Source of the DNA: a bacterium
Lineage (GTDB): Bacteria; Planctomycetota; Planctomycetia; Planctomycetales; Planctomycetaceae
Reading direction: 5' to 3'
DNA length: 64,000 bases
Assembly (NCBI GenBank): GCA_016124895.1
Contig: WGMU01000087.1
Coordinates: forward strand, 1 to 64,000
The notes below the pieces were generated by a model. The model saw nothing but the letters and a program-made list of their open reading frames with translations. It did no database searches and was not told the origin of the DNA. The first letter of the stretch is position 1; every line of letters starts with the position of its first letter. A program made the position numbers and the translations under genes. This document shows, piece by piece, positions 11,603 through 37,276 of this stretch.

Positions 11603-11864
11603 GACTCCAACCTGTCACCAGGAGAAGCCGCATGACACCTCTGCACCACTTCGGCGACCTCCTCCGCGACGCCCTGTCAGCCATCCCGCTGTGGTCCGTC
11701 CGAGCCCTCTTCGTCGGCAGCCTGCTCGCCGTCCTGATCTGGCTCCTCCGCCTGCCCCGCTCCGCCACAACACCCCGCGACGGTCGGGTCCGCTGGGACG
11801 AGAACCTCAAAACCACCGCTTCATCGCCCTGCTGATCCAGATCGCCATCTACTCGCTGCTGTGA
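11603..11864 (+). pseudogene. Decayed copy of SSS-transporter tail plus small membrane protein
   Basis: From ATG 11632 the frame reads MTPLHHFGDLLRDALSAIPL and closely parallels the intact 77-residue membrane protein at 32630-32863. The copy loses one base near 11822 (TCATC where the intact gene has TCAATC), ending early at TGA 11833-11835. Restoring one A gives S-I-A-L-L-I-Q-I-A-I-Y-S-L-L and a stop at 11862-11864, exactly as in the paralog. The bases before the ATG also match the end of the symporter gene next to the paralog: read in the right frame they give N-L-S-P-G-E-A-A-stop, compared with T-L-P-A-G-E-A-A-stop at the symporter end. So this looks like the remains of a symporter/small-protein pair whose large gene has been lost. 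It may still make a 67-residue truncated peptide. Confidence 0.7.
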
Positions 11865-12179
11865 GAGACTTCCGGTCGATGGCCCCGTCATGCGCCACCG
11901 CAGAACTCAGCGGCTTCGTTCCGGAATACTCAACTGTCAGCTCATTGGCCACATTCGCTCAGTCGCATTCCGGCCCCCGATCTCGCGACTCTACAACGGA
12001 GTAGCCCGCTGGCATGATACATACACATATCTGACTCATTCCCTTTCAACACACCTCTGGCTCTCATTCAGCCCTTGCTGAACACGTAATCCCAGATACG
12101 ATCCCACCGATTCCGACATTATCCCCCGGTTTAATCCGAGATACTGAGTACCTTCGGCGGCAAAGCAGAGGAGCACACC
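11865..12179. other. Intergenic region with repeat copy A
   Basis: No gene is supported. The 3' two-thirds hold copy A of a direct repeat (see the repeat entries). The DUF1579 ribosome-binding site, AGAGGAG, is at its end, six bases before ATG 12180. Base composition falls towards AT compared with the left flank. Confidence 0.5.
12055..12152 (+). repeat. Direct repeat copy A with TTCAGC/GCTGAA hairpin
   Basis: The segment aligns with 13007-13080. Shared blocks include CTCTGGCTC, ATTCAGC, TTGCTGAACACGT, GATCCCACCGA and ATCCGAGATACTGA. Copy A has an extra ~27 bases before the last block. Both copies hold the hairpin TTCAGC-4-GCTGAA (12067-12082 here); the stem is conserved while the loop differs (CCTT versus TTTT), which suggests the structure matters. 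It ends about 25 bases before ATG 12180. Confidence 0.7.
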
Positions 12180-12841: not shown

Positions 12842-13006
12842 CACTCGTAGGGTAGCTCGGACAGAATTGGCCGAGTGCCGCAGGCACAGGAAGCCAGACC
12901 ATCAGGGTTCAACTCCGGAATCCGGTCGACACTGATCGGGAGACAAAAGGTGCTGCTTCCTGCCGATTCGCAACCCGATCACGAGTGGCCGGGCCGCCCA
13001 GCGTCT

Positions 13007-13106
13007 CTGGCTCACATTCAGCTTTTGCTGAACACGTCATCCGGGATAAGATCCCACCGAATCCGAGATACTGAATACATTCGCCGTCTCGATAGCCGCT
13101 ACCCAG
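13007..13106 (+). repeat. Direct repeat copy B with hairpin and 29-base tail
   Basis: This is the counterpart of copy A. The hairpin TTCAGC-TTTT-GCTGAA is at 13017-13032, the GATCCCACCGA and ATCCGAGATACTGA blocks follow, and the 29-base unit closes the element. It ends 19 bases before the preferred ATG 13126, so it occupies the leader or promoter position of that gene just as copy A does for DUF1579. Confidence 0.7.
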
Positions 13107-32629: not shown

Positions 32630-32863
32630 TCAGAGCAGTGAGTAGATGAGGATCTGGACCAGCAGGGCGATTGACGCTGTCGTTTTGAGGTTCTCGTCCC
32701 AGCGCGTTGTTCCGCCACGTGGCGTTGTTGCGGAACGAGGCAGACGCAGCAGCCAGATCAGGACGGCGATGAGAGTGCCGATGAAGAGCACTCGCACGAG
32801 CCACAGGGGGATATTCGACAGCGTGTCGCGGAGAAGTTCGCCGAACTGATGCAGAGGTGTCAT
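32630..32863 (-). CDS. Small membrane protein coupled to SSS symporter
   Basis: A 77-residue protein (MTPLHQFGELLRDTLSNIPL...). It has one strong membrane segment at about residues 19-42 (IPLWLVRVLFIGTLIAVLIW) and a second hydrophobic stretch at the C-terminus, about 63-77. A conserved R-L-P-R-S-A-T-T-P-R-G-G linker and R-W-D-E-N-L-K lie between. Its ATG overlaps the symporter TGA as ATGA, so translation is coupled. Small subunits for SSS transporters are known (YhdT with PanF, DUF4212 proteins with acetate-type symporters), but this one does not resemble those I know and lies after, not before, the transporter. A decayed paralog is at 11632. Confidence 0.8.
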   Translation of the reverse strand: MTPLHQFGELLRDTLSNIPLWLVRVLFIGTLIAVLIWLLRLPRSATTPRGGTTRWDENLKTTASIALLVQILIYSLL

Positions 32864-34530
32864 GCGGCTTCTCCTGCGGGCAGAGTTGTGGGCGGCTCGC
32901 TGTCTGCTTCGACTGTGGCCCAGGCTGAGTAGACGTAGCGGAGTTTCTCCTCGGGATCGGGTGGGCTCAGCAGACTGCTCACGACCAGCAGAGTAGCCGT
33001 GACGAGGAATGCCCAGATCGAGAAGTACAGAAACGGCTCCTGAATCTGGAACAGTGGCGGCCATCCGAGGGCCTCGTAAACGGCGGGCTGGTTCAGTGCG
33101 TACAACAAAACCGACGTGGAGATTCCGCAGAGCAGGGCGAACAGCGCGGCTCGACCGGTCGCCCGTCGCCACAGAATGCCGAGTAGCAGGACTGCGAAGG
33201 CCGGGCCCTGAAAGAAGGCCATCAGCGTCTGAAAGATGGAGTAGATGCCAGACGCTTCGTTCATGCGCGTCAGCAGAAAGGCAAAGCCCAACGCCCAGAT
33301 CATCAGAGCGACGGTCGTGACACGGCCGACGCGCAGCAGTTGCTCGTCGGTCACGGACGGGTTCAGAAACCGCTTGTACAAATCGCTGGAAACGATGGTC
33401 GCGGCTGAATTCAGGTACGAATCGATGCTCGACATCAACGCTGCCAGAAACGCAGCGACGAACAGACCTCGCAGGCCAGCCGGCAGCAGCACGCCGACGA
33501 GGCTGGGGATCGCGGCGTCGCCGTTGGGCAGATCGGGTAGCAGAGCCACGGCGATCAGGCCGGGCACGGCAACGATCAGTGGAATGATGTTCTTGAGAAG
33601 GGCTCCCCAGACGTACGACGCCTTCGCCTCGAACTCGCTGCGGGCTCCGAGCGACCGCTGCACGATGGCCTGATTCCCGATCCAGTAGGCCGGGCTGAGG
33701 ATCAGTGCCAGACCGAAGTAAATGCCCGGCCAGGGAAACGGCGAGGGCGTATCGACCGGCAGAATCAGCGAGGTGCGTTCGGCGGGGCCTGTGTCGAGTT
33801 CGTTCGAGACTGACGCTGGCGCATCGTGCTGGCCATCGGGCGTATCGACGGTTTGCTGAGTGCGTCCTTCGGCCTCAGTCAGTCGACGGTTCAATTCACC
33901 AATGCCGCCGACCTCGACCAGTCCCAGCACAAGAATCATCAGGCAGCCGGTGATCATCACACAGCACTGGATCATGTCGGTATAGACGACCGCAGCCAGG
34001 CCGCCGATCAGTGTGTAGCCGCCGACCAGCAGAGCGGTCACTACAATGCACGCCGTCGTGTTCCAGCCGAACACCGCCGACATCATCCTGGCCGACGCCA
34101 GCAGCATGATGCCGAGGTTGCAGGCCATGAACAGCAGCCAGCACAGCGCCATGACCAGACGAACGCCGGCGTTGTAGCGGCGTTCGAGGAACTCGGGCAC
34201 GGTATAAACGCCGGCTCGGTAGAAGAAGGGGATGAAGACGAACGCGCCGACAATCATCGCAGGTACGCAGCCAATCCACTCGAAGTTTGCGACCGCCAGT
34301 CCGTGACTGTAGGCCGCTCCACCAACTCCGATAATGTCCGTTCCGCCGATATCCGTGGCGACAAGCGACATGCCGATCGCCCACCACGGCAACCGTCGCC
34401 CGGCCAGGAAGAAGTCGGTGCCACTCTTCAGCCGCAGACCGATAGCGACACCGAGACCGAGCGTCGCCACGAGGTAGATCCCGATGACGAGATAATCCGG
34501 CAGAGTCAGAACGCTGGTGTCGGCGAGCAT
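32860..34530 (-). CDS. Sodium:solute symporter (SSS family)
   Basis: A 556-residue integral membrane protein with about 13-14 predicted helices. SSS hallmarks are the first helix D-Y-L-V-I-G-I-Y-L-V-A-T-L-G-L-G-V-A, F-F-L-A-G-R-R-L-P-W-W-A-I-G-M-S-L, A-Y-S-H-G-L-A, G-G-L-A-A-V-V-Y-T-D-M-I-Q, W-I-G-N-Q-A-I-V-Q-R-S-L-G-A, and A-A-L-M-S-S-I-D-S-Y-L-N-S-A-A-T. It probably imports a sugar or similar solute with Na+. A ~55-residue hydrophilic loop (about residues 218-272) is longer than usual. The gene ends in ATGA overlap with the small membrane protein. Confidence 0.93.
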   Translation of the reverse strand: MLADTSVLTLPDYLVIGIYLVATLGLGVAIGLRLKSGTDFFLAGRRLPWWAIGMSLVATDIGGTDIIGVGGAAYSHGLAVANFEWIGCVPAMIVGAFVFIPFFYRAGVYTVPEFLERRYNAGVRLVMALCWLLFMACNLGIMLLASARMMSAVFGWNTTACIVVTALLVGGYTLIGGLAAVVYTDMIQCCVMITGCLMILVLGLVEVGGIGELNRRLTEAEGRTQQTVDTPDGQHDAPASVSNELDTGPAERTSLILPVDTPSPFPWPGIYFGLALILSPAYWIGNQAIVQRSLGARSEFEAKASYVWGALLKNIIPLIVAVPGLIAVALLPDLPNGDAAIPSLVGVLLPAGLRGLFVAAFLAALMSSIDSYLNSAATIVSSDLYKRFLNPSVTDEQLLRVGRVTTVALMIWALGFAFLLTRMNEASGIYSIFQTLMAFFQGPAFAVLLLGILWRRATGRAALFALLCGISTSVLLYALNQPAVYEALGWPPLFQIQEPFLYFSIWAFLVTATLLVVSSLLSPPDPEEKLRYVYSAWATVEADSEPPTTLPAGEAA

Positions 34531-34858: not shown

Positions 34859-37276
34859 ATGAAGACACTCGTGATTCTGAATCTACAAGTGGTTGTCGCG
34901 CTGGCAGCTCTGTTGAGTTCGGCAACAGCGGACGACTTCACACTGCACTCGTTTCAGAGGCAGCAACTGACTGACGTGTATTACTCGGAAGGCGCCAACA
35001 CCGGAGACCTCAATGGGGACGGCAGGGTCGACGTCGTTTATGGGCCGTTCTGGTTCGTCGGACCGGACTTCAAAGTGAAGCATGAGATCTACACGCCGGT
35101 GCCGCAGGACACGAACCGGTATGCGGACAACTTCTTTTCGTGGGTTTACGACTTCAATGGCGACGGACGCAACGATGTCTTCGTCGTCGGCTTTCCCGGC
35201 ACGCCCGCGTACGTTTACGAAAACCCCGGACCGACCGGGCTCAGTTCGCACTGGAAGAAGCACCAGGTTTTCGACTGGGTCTCCAACGAGTCTCCGCAAC
35301 TGACAAATCTCACTGGTGATGAGCGGCCCGAACTGGTCTGCACGCGCGACGGCTTCTTCGGCTTTGCGACGATCAACTGGGACAGGCCATTTGACGCGTG
35401 GTCGTTCCACCCGATTTCAGAGCAGATCACCGCAACAAAGTTCGGACACGGGCTCGGGATTGGTGATGTCAACGGCGACGGTCGGCTCGACGTGATTCAT
35501 TCCAAGGGCTGGTTCGAACAACCCGAATCGAATGCAGAATCGTCACGCTGGATTCCGCACGCGGCCTCGTTCAGCAACGCGTACGGCGGGGCGGAAATAT
35601 ACGCGTACGATGTCGATGGTGACGGCGACAACGACGTCATCACGAGCCAGGCGGCGCATGACTTTGGTCTGAGCTGGTATGAACAGGTCCGCGACGGCGA
35701 CGGCGTTACGTTCAAGCATCATCTGATTATGGGATCGCACCCGTCGGAGAATAAGTACGGCGTTCTGTTCAGCGAACTGCACTCGGTCGCGCTGGCGGAT
35801 ATAGACGGCGACGGTCTGAAGGATATTGTCACCGGGAAGACTTACTGGTCGCATCACAAGCAGAGTCCGATGTGGGACGCCGGCGCCGTTGTCTACTGGT
35901 TCCGGCTGACGCGAACCGACAAGGGCGTCGACTGGATTCCGTATCAGGCTGATGGAGAAGCGGGTATCGGGCGGCAGCTTTCTGTGACGGATATCAACGG
36001 CGACGGAAAACTGGACATCATCGTCGGTGGCATGAAGGGCGCTCACGTTCTGACGCATCAGACGAAATCTGTCCCAGAAGCGGAATGGCAGGCCGCGCAG
36101 CCGAAGCCGTACACCGGTCTGAAGCTGCCGTCAGTTGAGAGCGCCAAAGCGGCTCGCGGACCGAAAGCAAAGATCGACGAAAAGACGGGCCGCGTTGAGG
36201 GCGCGATCGAGGGAGAGTCGTTGAAGTCTCGGGCGTCCGCCGGTAAACCCCAGACGCAGGATATGAGCCGCTTCAAGGAAGACCGCTGGAGCGATGACGC
36301 GCAGCTCTGGTGGGCAGGCGGTCGGCCGGGCGACGCATTGACACTCGACCTGCCCGAGTTCACTGGAACGGTCGATCTCGAAGTCGTTCTGACCTGCGCT
36401 CGGGATTACGGCATCGTGCAGTTGTCACTCGACGATCAGCCGCTCGGTGATCCGATCGACCTGTTCAATCCCGACGTGATTACGACCGGCGTACTGAGCT
36501 TTCCGAAACTCGCCGTCAAAGGCCGCAAGCACTCGCTGACGCTGCAGATCGCGGGAGCGAATCCGCAGGCCGTGAAGGCGTACATGGTGGCGATCGACTG
36601 GCTGCGTCTCCGCCAGTCAGACGGAACCTTCGTTGCCGGTGCGTCTAACGTTCCGCCAGACGGTGCGGCATCAACCGCCGTTGTAAAACAGCCAGTCCCG
36701 GCAACTCGCGAAACAGCAAAGATATTGTTCAACGGCCGTGATCTGACCGGCTGGTCGGGACATGCTGATCTGTGGTCGGTGGAAGACGGCGAACTCGTCG
36801 GACGCACGGATGGATTACGCCGCAACGAGTGGATCGTCAGTGACCTGTCGGCTGTGAATTTCCGTCTGACGCTGGAAGTCAAACTCGTCGACAACGCCGG
36901 CAACAGCGGGATCCAGTTCCGCAGCAAGGCGCATGATGGCGAGGTGTCCGGCTATCAGGCGGATATTGGCGCCGGCTGGTGGGGCAAGCTGTACGAGGAA
37001 CACGGCCGCGCGCTTTTGTGGGCCAAGTCCGGCGAGCAGTACGTCAAGCCGGGTGACTGGAACACGTACGAAGTCGTTGCCGACGGACATTACATTCGGA
37101 CGGCGATTAACGGCCAGACATGCGTGGACCTCAATGATCCCAGGGGAGCGACGCGCGGCATCATCGCCTTTCAACTGCACAGCGGTGGAAAGACGGAGGT
37201 CCGTTTCCGGAAGATTCGACTGGAACTGCTCGATGACAAGCCAGAAGCGCCAACAGACGGGAAACGTCCGGAATGA
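34859..37276 (+). CDS. Secreted FG-GAP/VCBS protein with C-terminal 3-keto-disaccharide hydrolase-like (DUF1080) domain
   Basis: An 805-residue protein with a signal peptide (MKTLVILNLQVVVALAALLS, cut near ATADD). Residues about 25-405 hold FG-GAP/VCBS repeats with Ca-binding D-x-N/D-G-D-G-x-x-D motifs (GDLNGDGRVDVV, YDFNGDGRNDVF, GDVNGDGRLDVI, DVDGDGDNDVI, DIDGDGLKDIV, DINGDGKLDII), a propeller. A linker and a carbohydrate-binding-like beta domain follow (about 430-590). Residues about 615-795 match DUF1080: I-L-F-N-G-R-D-L-T-G-W-S-G, W-S-V-E-D-G-E-L-V-G, N-S-G-I-Q-F-R-S, and G-D-W-N-T-Y-E-V. Likely binds and cleaves glycans outside the cell. Divergent from the symporter, which could take up the product (inference). 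Confidence 0.88.
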   Translation: MKTLVILNLQVVVALAALLSSATADDFTLHSFQRQQLTDVYYSEGANTGDLNGDGRVDVVYGPFWFVGPDFKVKHEIYTPVPQDTNRYADNFFSWVYDFNGDGRNDVFVVGFPGTPAYVYENPGPTGLSSHWKKHQVFDWVSNESPQLTNLTGDERPELVCTRDGFFGFATINWDRPFDAWSFHPISEQITATKFGHGLGIGDVNGDGRLDVIHSKGWFEQPESNAESSRWIPHAASFSNAYGGAEIYAYDVDGDGDNDVITSQAAHDFGLSWYEQVRDGDGVTFKHHLIMGSHPSENKYGVLFSELHSVALADIDGDGLKDIVTGKTYWSHHKQSPMWDAGAVVYWFRLTRTDKGVDWIPYQADGEAGIGRQLSVTDINGDGKLDIIVGGMKGAHVLTHQTKSVPEAEWQAAQPKPYTGLKLPSVESAKAARGPKAKIDEKTGRVEGAIEGESLKSRASAGKPQTQDMSRFKEDRWSDDAQLWWAGGRPGDALTLDLPEFTGTVDLEVVLTCARDYGIVQLSLDDQPLGDPIDLFNPDVITTGVLSFPKLAVKGRKHSLTLQIAGANPQAVKAYMVAIDWLRLRQSDGTFVAGASNVPPDGAASTAVVKQPVPATRETAKILFNGRDLTGWSGHADLWSVEDGELVGRTDGLRRNEWIVSDLSAVNFRLTLEVKLVDNAGNSGIQFRSKAHDGEVSGYQADIGAGWWGKLYEEHGRALLWAKSGEQYVKPGDWNTYEVVADGHYIRTAINGQTCVDLNDPRGATRGIIAFQLHSGGKTEVRFRKIRLELLDDKPEAPTDGKRPE

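Follow-up and report, generated by a model that had tools for sequence, protein, structure and literature searches.

A two-helix protein encoded behind a planctomycete SGLT-type symporter as the probable second chain of the transporter

The window analysed here is a stretch of 64,000 nucleotides from a bacterium of the Planctomycetaceae (GenBank assembly GCA_016124895.1, contig WGMU01000087.1, positions 1 to 64,000). Its reverse strand carries a gene for an SGLT-type symporter of the sodium/solute symporter (SSS) family (556 aa, 32860..34530), followed by a gene for a small partner protein of 77 aa with two transmembrane (TM) helices and without a known family (32630..32863). The original prediction, made from the letters alone, held that the two reading frames share an ATGA (32860..32863), which was confirmed: the symporter ORF (34530..32860) ends with GCA-TGA and the small ORF (32863..32630) begins with ATG-ACA, the shared tetranucleotide thus comprising the symporter stop and the small-gene start. 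This overlap is kept in relatives with both genes, where ATGA occurs at 46/59 and GTGA at 6/59 junctions, i. e. at 52/59 together. Seemingly fused genes in G405 and G456 are really open +1 frames in GC-rich DNA. The two hydrophobic segments that had been described for the small protein are likewise borne out, as TM helices are predicted at residues 20–40 (helix 1; 32744..32806, reverse strand) and, C-terminally, at residues 53–76 (helix 2; 32636..32707, reverse strand). Both were also assessed by profile scans, and a further helix is predicted at residues 3–16 (mean pLDDT 73). Family-wide charges, with mean net values of −0.3, +0.75 and 0, show a mild bias toward an inter-helix loop inside and both ends outside.

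The small ORF is more than a chance reading frame, since 63 of the 170 family genomes contain a homologue, these homologues lie next to the same symporter, and purifying selection acts on them. Compared pairwise by NG86, the small gene shows a dN/dS of ~0.17 against a same-genus homologue and of 0–0.06 in four closer pairs, while a fifth pair has hardly diverged (dS 0.02) and is hence uninformative for dN/dS. No family match was obtained in Pfam and NCBIfam for the small protein, either alone or via 16 homologues. Caveolin, FixP_N and other Pfam matches of single members were below the cut-off and differed from member to member. Small partners of SSS transporters are known, namely YhdT/DUF997 with PanF as well as DUF4212 and DUF485 with acetate-type symporters, and they share with the present case a small membrane protein encoded beside an SSS gene. 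However, their genes usually precede that of the symporter instead of following it, they belong with other SSS subgroups, and the small protein described here matches a 14th transporter helix (see below) and lacks those Pfam families: none of the 16 members matched the profiles of YhdT, DUF4212 or DUF485 at E-values up to 1. The earlier statement that the known accessory subunits do not resemble the small protein is upheld by the profile search. A described small SSS partner of such a kind was not found in the literature searched.

The affiliation of the large chain is clear from its matches to PF00474 (E 3.5e-73, 247 bits against a cut-off of 22.8, model positions 1–406 of 406) and TIGR00813 (E 4.1e-92). 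Among solved structures, SGLT1 and vSGLT come closest to it, with E-values of 1e-60 to 1e-65 over helices 1–13. The alignment with a vSGLT orthologue (a full-length match to 2XQ2; 30% identity) stops at residue 507 of 543 of the orthologue, before its last helix, and 13 TM helices instead of 14 are present in the single chain of the symporter. The same applies to the partner-bearing symporters in general, which end 10–40 residues past the 13th helix and have no hydrophobic segment beyond it, whereas each of 18 SGLT-type paralogues without the small gene carries a C-terminal 14th helix. An AlphaFold model of the symporter built from four sequences was set aside (mean pLDDT 36).

The prediction had called for a search of planctomycetes for the small protein beside SSS genes and had named homologues lying mostly far from such genes as the outcome that would speak against it. 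The opposite was found. At thresholds of E <= 0.001 for the small gene (63 genomes) and E <= 1e-60 for the symporter (62 genomes), both genes are present in 62 of the 170 family genomes and neither in 107, one genome having a decayed small gene alone; most of these assemblies are drafts, with only a few exceptions. All 62 symporter-bearing genomes also carry the small gene, and the two sets are identical apart from G058. When family and phylum loci were pooled and duplicates removed, the small gene lay <=400 nt downstream of 60 out of 61 symporters of the clade. Within mixed genera, the two genes were gained or lost jointly, as in G049 compared with G048/G050/G051, or in G052/G054/G056 compared with G053/G055/G057/G059. 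The search with the small-family profile covered the planctomycete phylum and also recovered remote homologues from its other families by profile only (with the first model at E-values of 1e-8 at best), and these directly follow an SGLT-type symporter in every case where the contig extends over the locus. The sole exception to adjacency is G144, whose symporter and small gene are both intact and unlinked (L165 1–5001, L166 1–7001); the small gene sits there behind a lysyl-tRNA-synthetase-like ORF. Two irregular loci were also noted. In G058 (L169 2886–3041), a small-gene remnant contains five stop codons and a symporter of the clade was not found, an apparent joint loss of both genes. In the highly fragmented draft of G165 (L170 3220–3480, reverse strand), a frameshifted small gene follows an intact symporter, for which sequencing error and recent decay cannot be told apart. 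Among plasmid records, no symporter of the partner-bearing clade was found, the best match having 34% identity.

Adjacency, co-occurrence and the kept 4-nt overlap hence make it well supported that the small protein is a dedicated partner of the symporter, as originally interpreted, although one argument adduced for this does not hold. A second, decayed copy of the small gene does exist in the window (11621..11864, forward strand; ORF 11632–11835, remnant to 11864). It is 80% identical to the linked copy over residues 1–65, after which one missing base causes a 1-nt frameshift of the last residues. Ahead of it lies an unrelated oxidoreductase-like ORF and no symporter adjoins it, so that this copy provides no evidence for the association. 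Its DNA is 92.7% identical to the symporter-linked small gene of the same-genus locus L065 and 81% identical to the linked copy of the window, in a match that spans the gene and about ten preceding bases only. We rather regard it as a stray that is older or was acquired separately. A 65-bp stretch also occurs twice in this part of the window (12055–12119 and 13005–13069, forward strand, ~950 bp apart, 86% identical).

The main evidence on the role of the partner came from an ungapped profile–profile scan, in which the C-terminal 26 alignment columns of the small family were moved over an alignment of the paralogues, and which took the place of HMM scores for individual paralogue windows with the C-terminal half of the small protein. 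The C-terminal helix of the paralogues obtained a raw score of 12.7 versus −1.6 for the next best of 551 scanned positions (z 6.4 versus 3.6), and none of 500 column permutations scored as high. The aligned consensus reads DGRWWRNLKIWAALALLIQIVIYSLL for the small family and GPSWYGSPRLWASVVVAVMVALYVVF for the paralogues. The register was identical whether near or far members of the small family were used, and also in three separate paralogue groups, one of which, the WYKS-motif group, is weak on its own (22/500). When single sequences from beyond the phylum were scanned, the last SGLT-type helix was top-ranked in YidK (0/500 permutations), a Catenovulum protein (1/500), a Novosphingobium protein (19/500) and the vSGLT orthologue (28/500); for the individual paralogues L140 and L213, the last helix was not ranked first. 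In YidK, it is helix 497–522 (PWKNVKIASIGILFAMIGVYAGL) that matches the second helix of the small protein. This E. coli transporter belongs to the same broad SGLT-type group but is a single chain with its own 14th helix and one further helix. A comparable match was absent from more distant SSS proteins that lack a 14th helix, as well as from the large chains of the clade itself. With hhalign, the only local match fell on the last helix of the paralogues (P 0.0018); its low probability of 14.7% is usual for so short a match, although a length of just 26 residues also counts against the assignment. Helix 1 of the small protein aligned with a segment near the 12th helix at z 5.0; given a poor raw score and 93/500 permutations, this was put down to chance. 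A convincing symporter counterpart of the N-terminal half was not found by profile scan. Helix 2 is thus probably equivalent to the 14th helix lost from the large chain, and the small protein seems to be a detached part of the transporter combined with an extra helix.

On this basis, we consider it likely that the products of both genes form a single two-chain transporter. Its large chain would be a sodium/solute symporter of the SGLT type without any helix beyond the 13th, while the small chain would supply a short N-terminal amphipathic helix, an extra TM helix and, at its C-terminus, a helix equivalent to the 14th. Through the overlap, the small gene would be translated after the symporter, a coupling suggested by the arrangement of the two frames. 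The small chain may then insert with both ends outside, as weakly favored by its charges, so that helix 2 would run from the cytoplasm to the periplasm and, to judge from its match, take up the position of the 14th helix. Presumably, the two chains bind each other, and the complex could import a sugar-like solute together with sodium. Compared with vSGLT, SGLT1 and SGLT2, the large chain aligns over helices 1–13 and retains key sugar and Na2 residues, yet those transporters have all 14 helices on a single chain, the last of which is matched here by the small protein.

The 14th helix of SGLT-type transporters, which is TM13 in the numbering of SGLT structures that starts at TM0, is peripheral to the LeuT-fold core. 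In human SGLT2, which requires the subunit MAP17 for activity (PMC10803289; PMC9616851), TM13 contacts the single helix of MAP17 (PMC10803289). As the same helix bears MAP17 in SGLT2, both the 14th helix and a companion helix may be united in the small protein, and helix 1 could pack beside helix 2 much as MAP17 does against TM13. The two systems are alike only in how they are arranged, a small membrane subunit accompanying an SGLT-type symporter in each. With its one TM helix, MAP17 joins a complete symporter, whereas the planctomycete partner has two TM helices, one of which appears to be the 14th helix itself. A profile search for MAP17 homology among sequences of solved structures gave merely two chance-level matches, neither of them MAP17.

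As an alternative, the small protein could be a regulatory or stabilizing subunit whose helix 2 resembles the 14th helix by convergence only. It would account equally well for the gene association and the overlap, and two-helix accessory proteins do occur with other SSS groups. The activation of human SGLT2 by single-helix MAP17 is a further precedent (PMC10803289). However, such a subunit would not be expected to match the missing helix in a fixed register across several independent SSS groups, nor would the 14th helix be expected to be absent in exactly the partner-bearing clade, and we therefore regard this explanation as rather unlikely. Far less credible is programmed frameshifting at the ATGA to give one fused 15-helix protein, since the 4-nt overlap would permit a −1 shift but the bases ahead of it differ among genomes, the genes do not overlap in L067, L164 and L194, and the unlinked small gene of G144 has its own start. 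Equally hard to credit is a non-functional remnant of the former symporter C-terminus, for even though the small protein resembles a detached C-terminal helix and one copy within the window is decaying, the low dN/dS, the phylum-wide retention, the kept length and overlap and the survival of the unlinked gene in G144 all argue against it.

Regarding the origin of the two-chain transporter, a tree of 54 symporters unites the partner-bearing ones in one group (support 96/98) on the same side as the 14-helix SGLT-type proteins. The simplest history inferred from these sequences would be a single split deep in the phylum, by which the symporter gene gave up its last helix to a separate, usually overlapping gene that also encodes an added helix. 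By the same token, the complementarity between missing helix and partner represents one event and may not be counted as many independent observations. Moreover, not every SSS protein depends on a 14th helix, as 13-helix members exist, so that its loss need not require a replacement. The complementarity alone is hence suggestive, and the sequence match is the stronger evidence. The more far-reaching idea of a phylum-wide split SGLT-type clade, in which the small chain of an obligate two-chain symporter joins a counterpart of the 14th helix to one of a MAP17-like companion, appears to us evenly poised. If the two-chain reading is true, an undescribed protein family would receive a name and a function, and the case would show a membrane transporter gene that was split once and then stayed split. 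A 14th helix made as a separate gene product could also be taken away, given back or swapped while the transporter itself stays uncut.

The solute is probably a sugar or a similar compound, because the SGLT1 sugar-site residues E102, Y290, W291, K321 and Q457 as well as the Na2 serines 392/393 are kept in the symporter (E84, Y282, W283, K313, Q434, S367 and S368 in its own numbering). N78 and H83 of SGLT1 are not kept and correspond to D60 and D65. Neighbor genes in relatives encode GH35 enzymes, a sialate acetylesterase-like enzyme, amidohydrolases and GDSL hydrolases. The symporter of the window has as its divergent neighbor a gene (34859–37276, forward strand) whose product combines FG-GAP repeats with a DUF1080-type 3-keto-disaccharide hydrolase domain. 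Three relatives encode an Amidohydro_2 protein divergently from the symporter (L066 1193–3022, reverse strand; L067 1897–3114, reverse strand; L192 7177–8370, forward strand), in one of them with CBM9-like domains, which may be a hint at the pathway.
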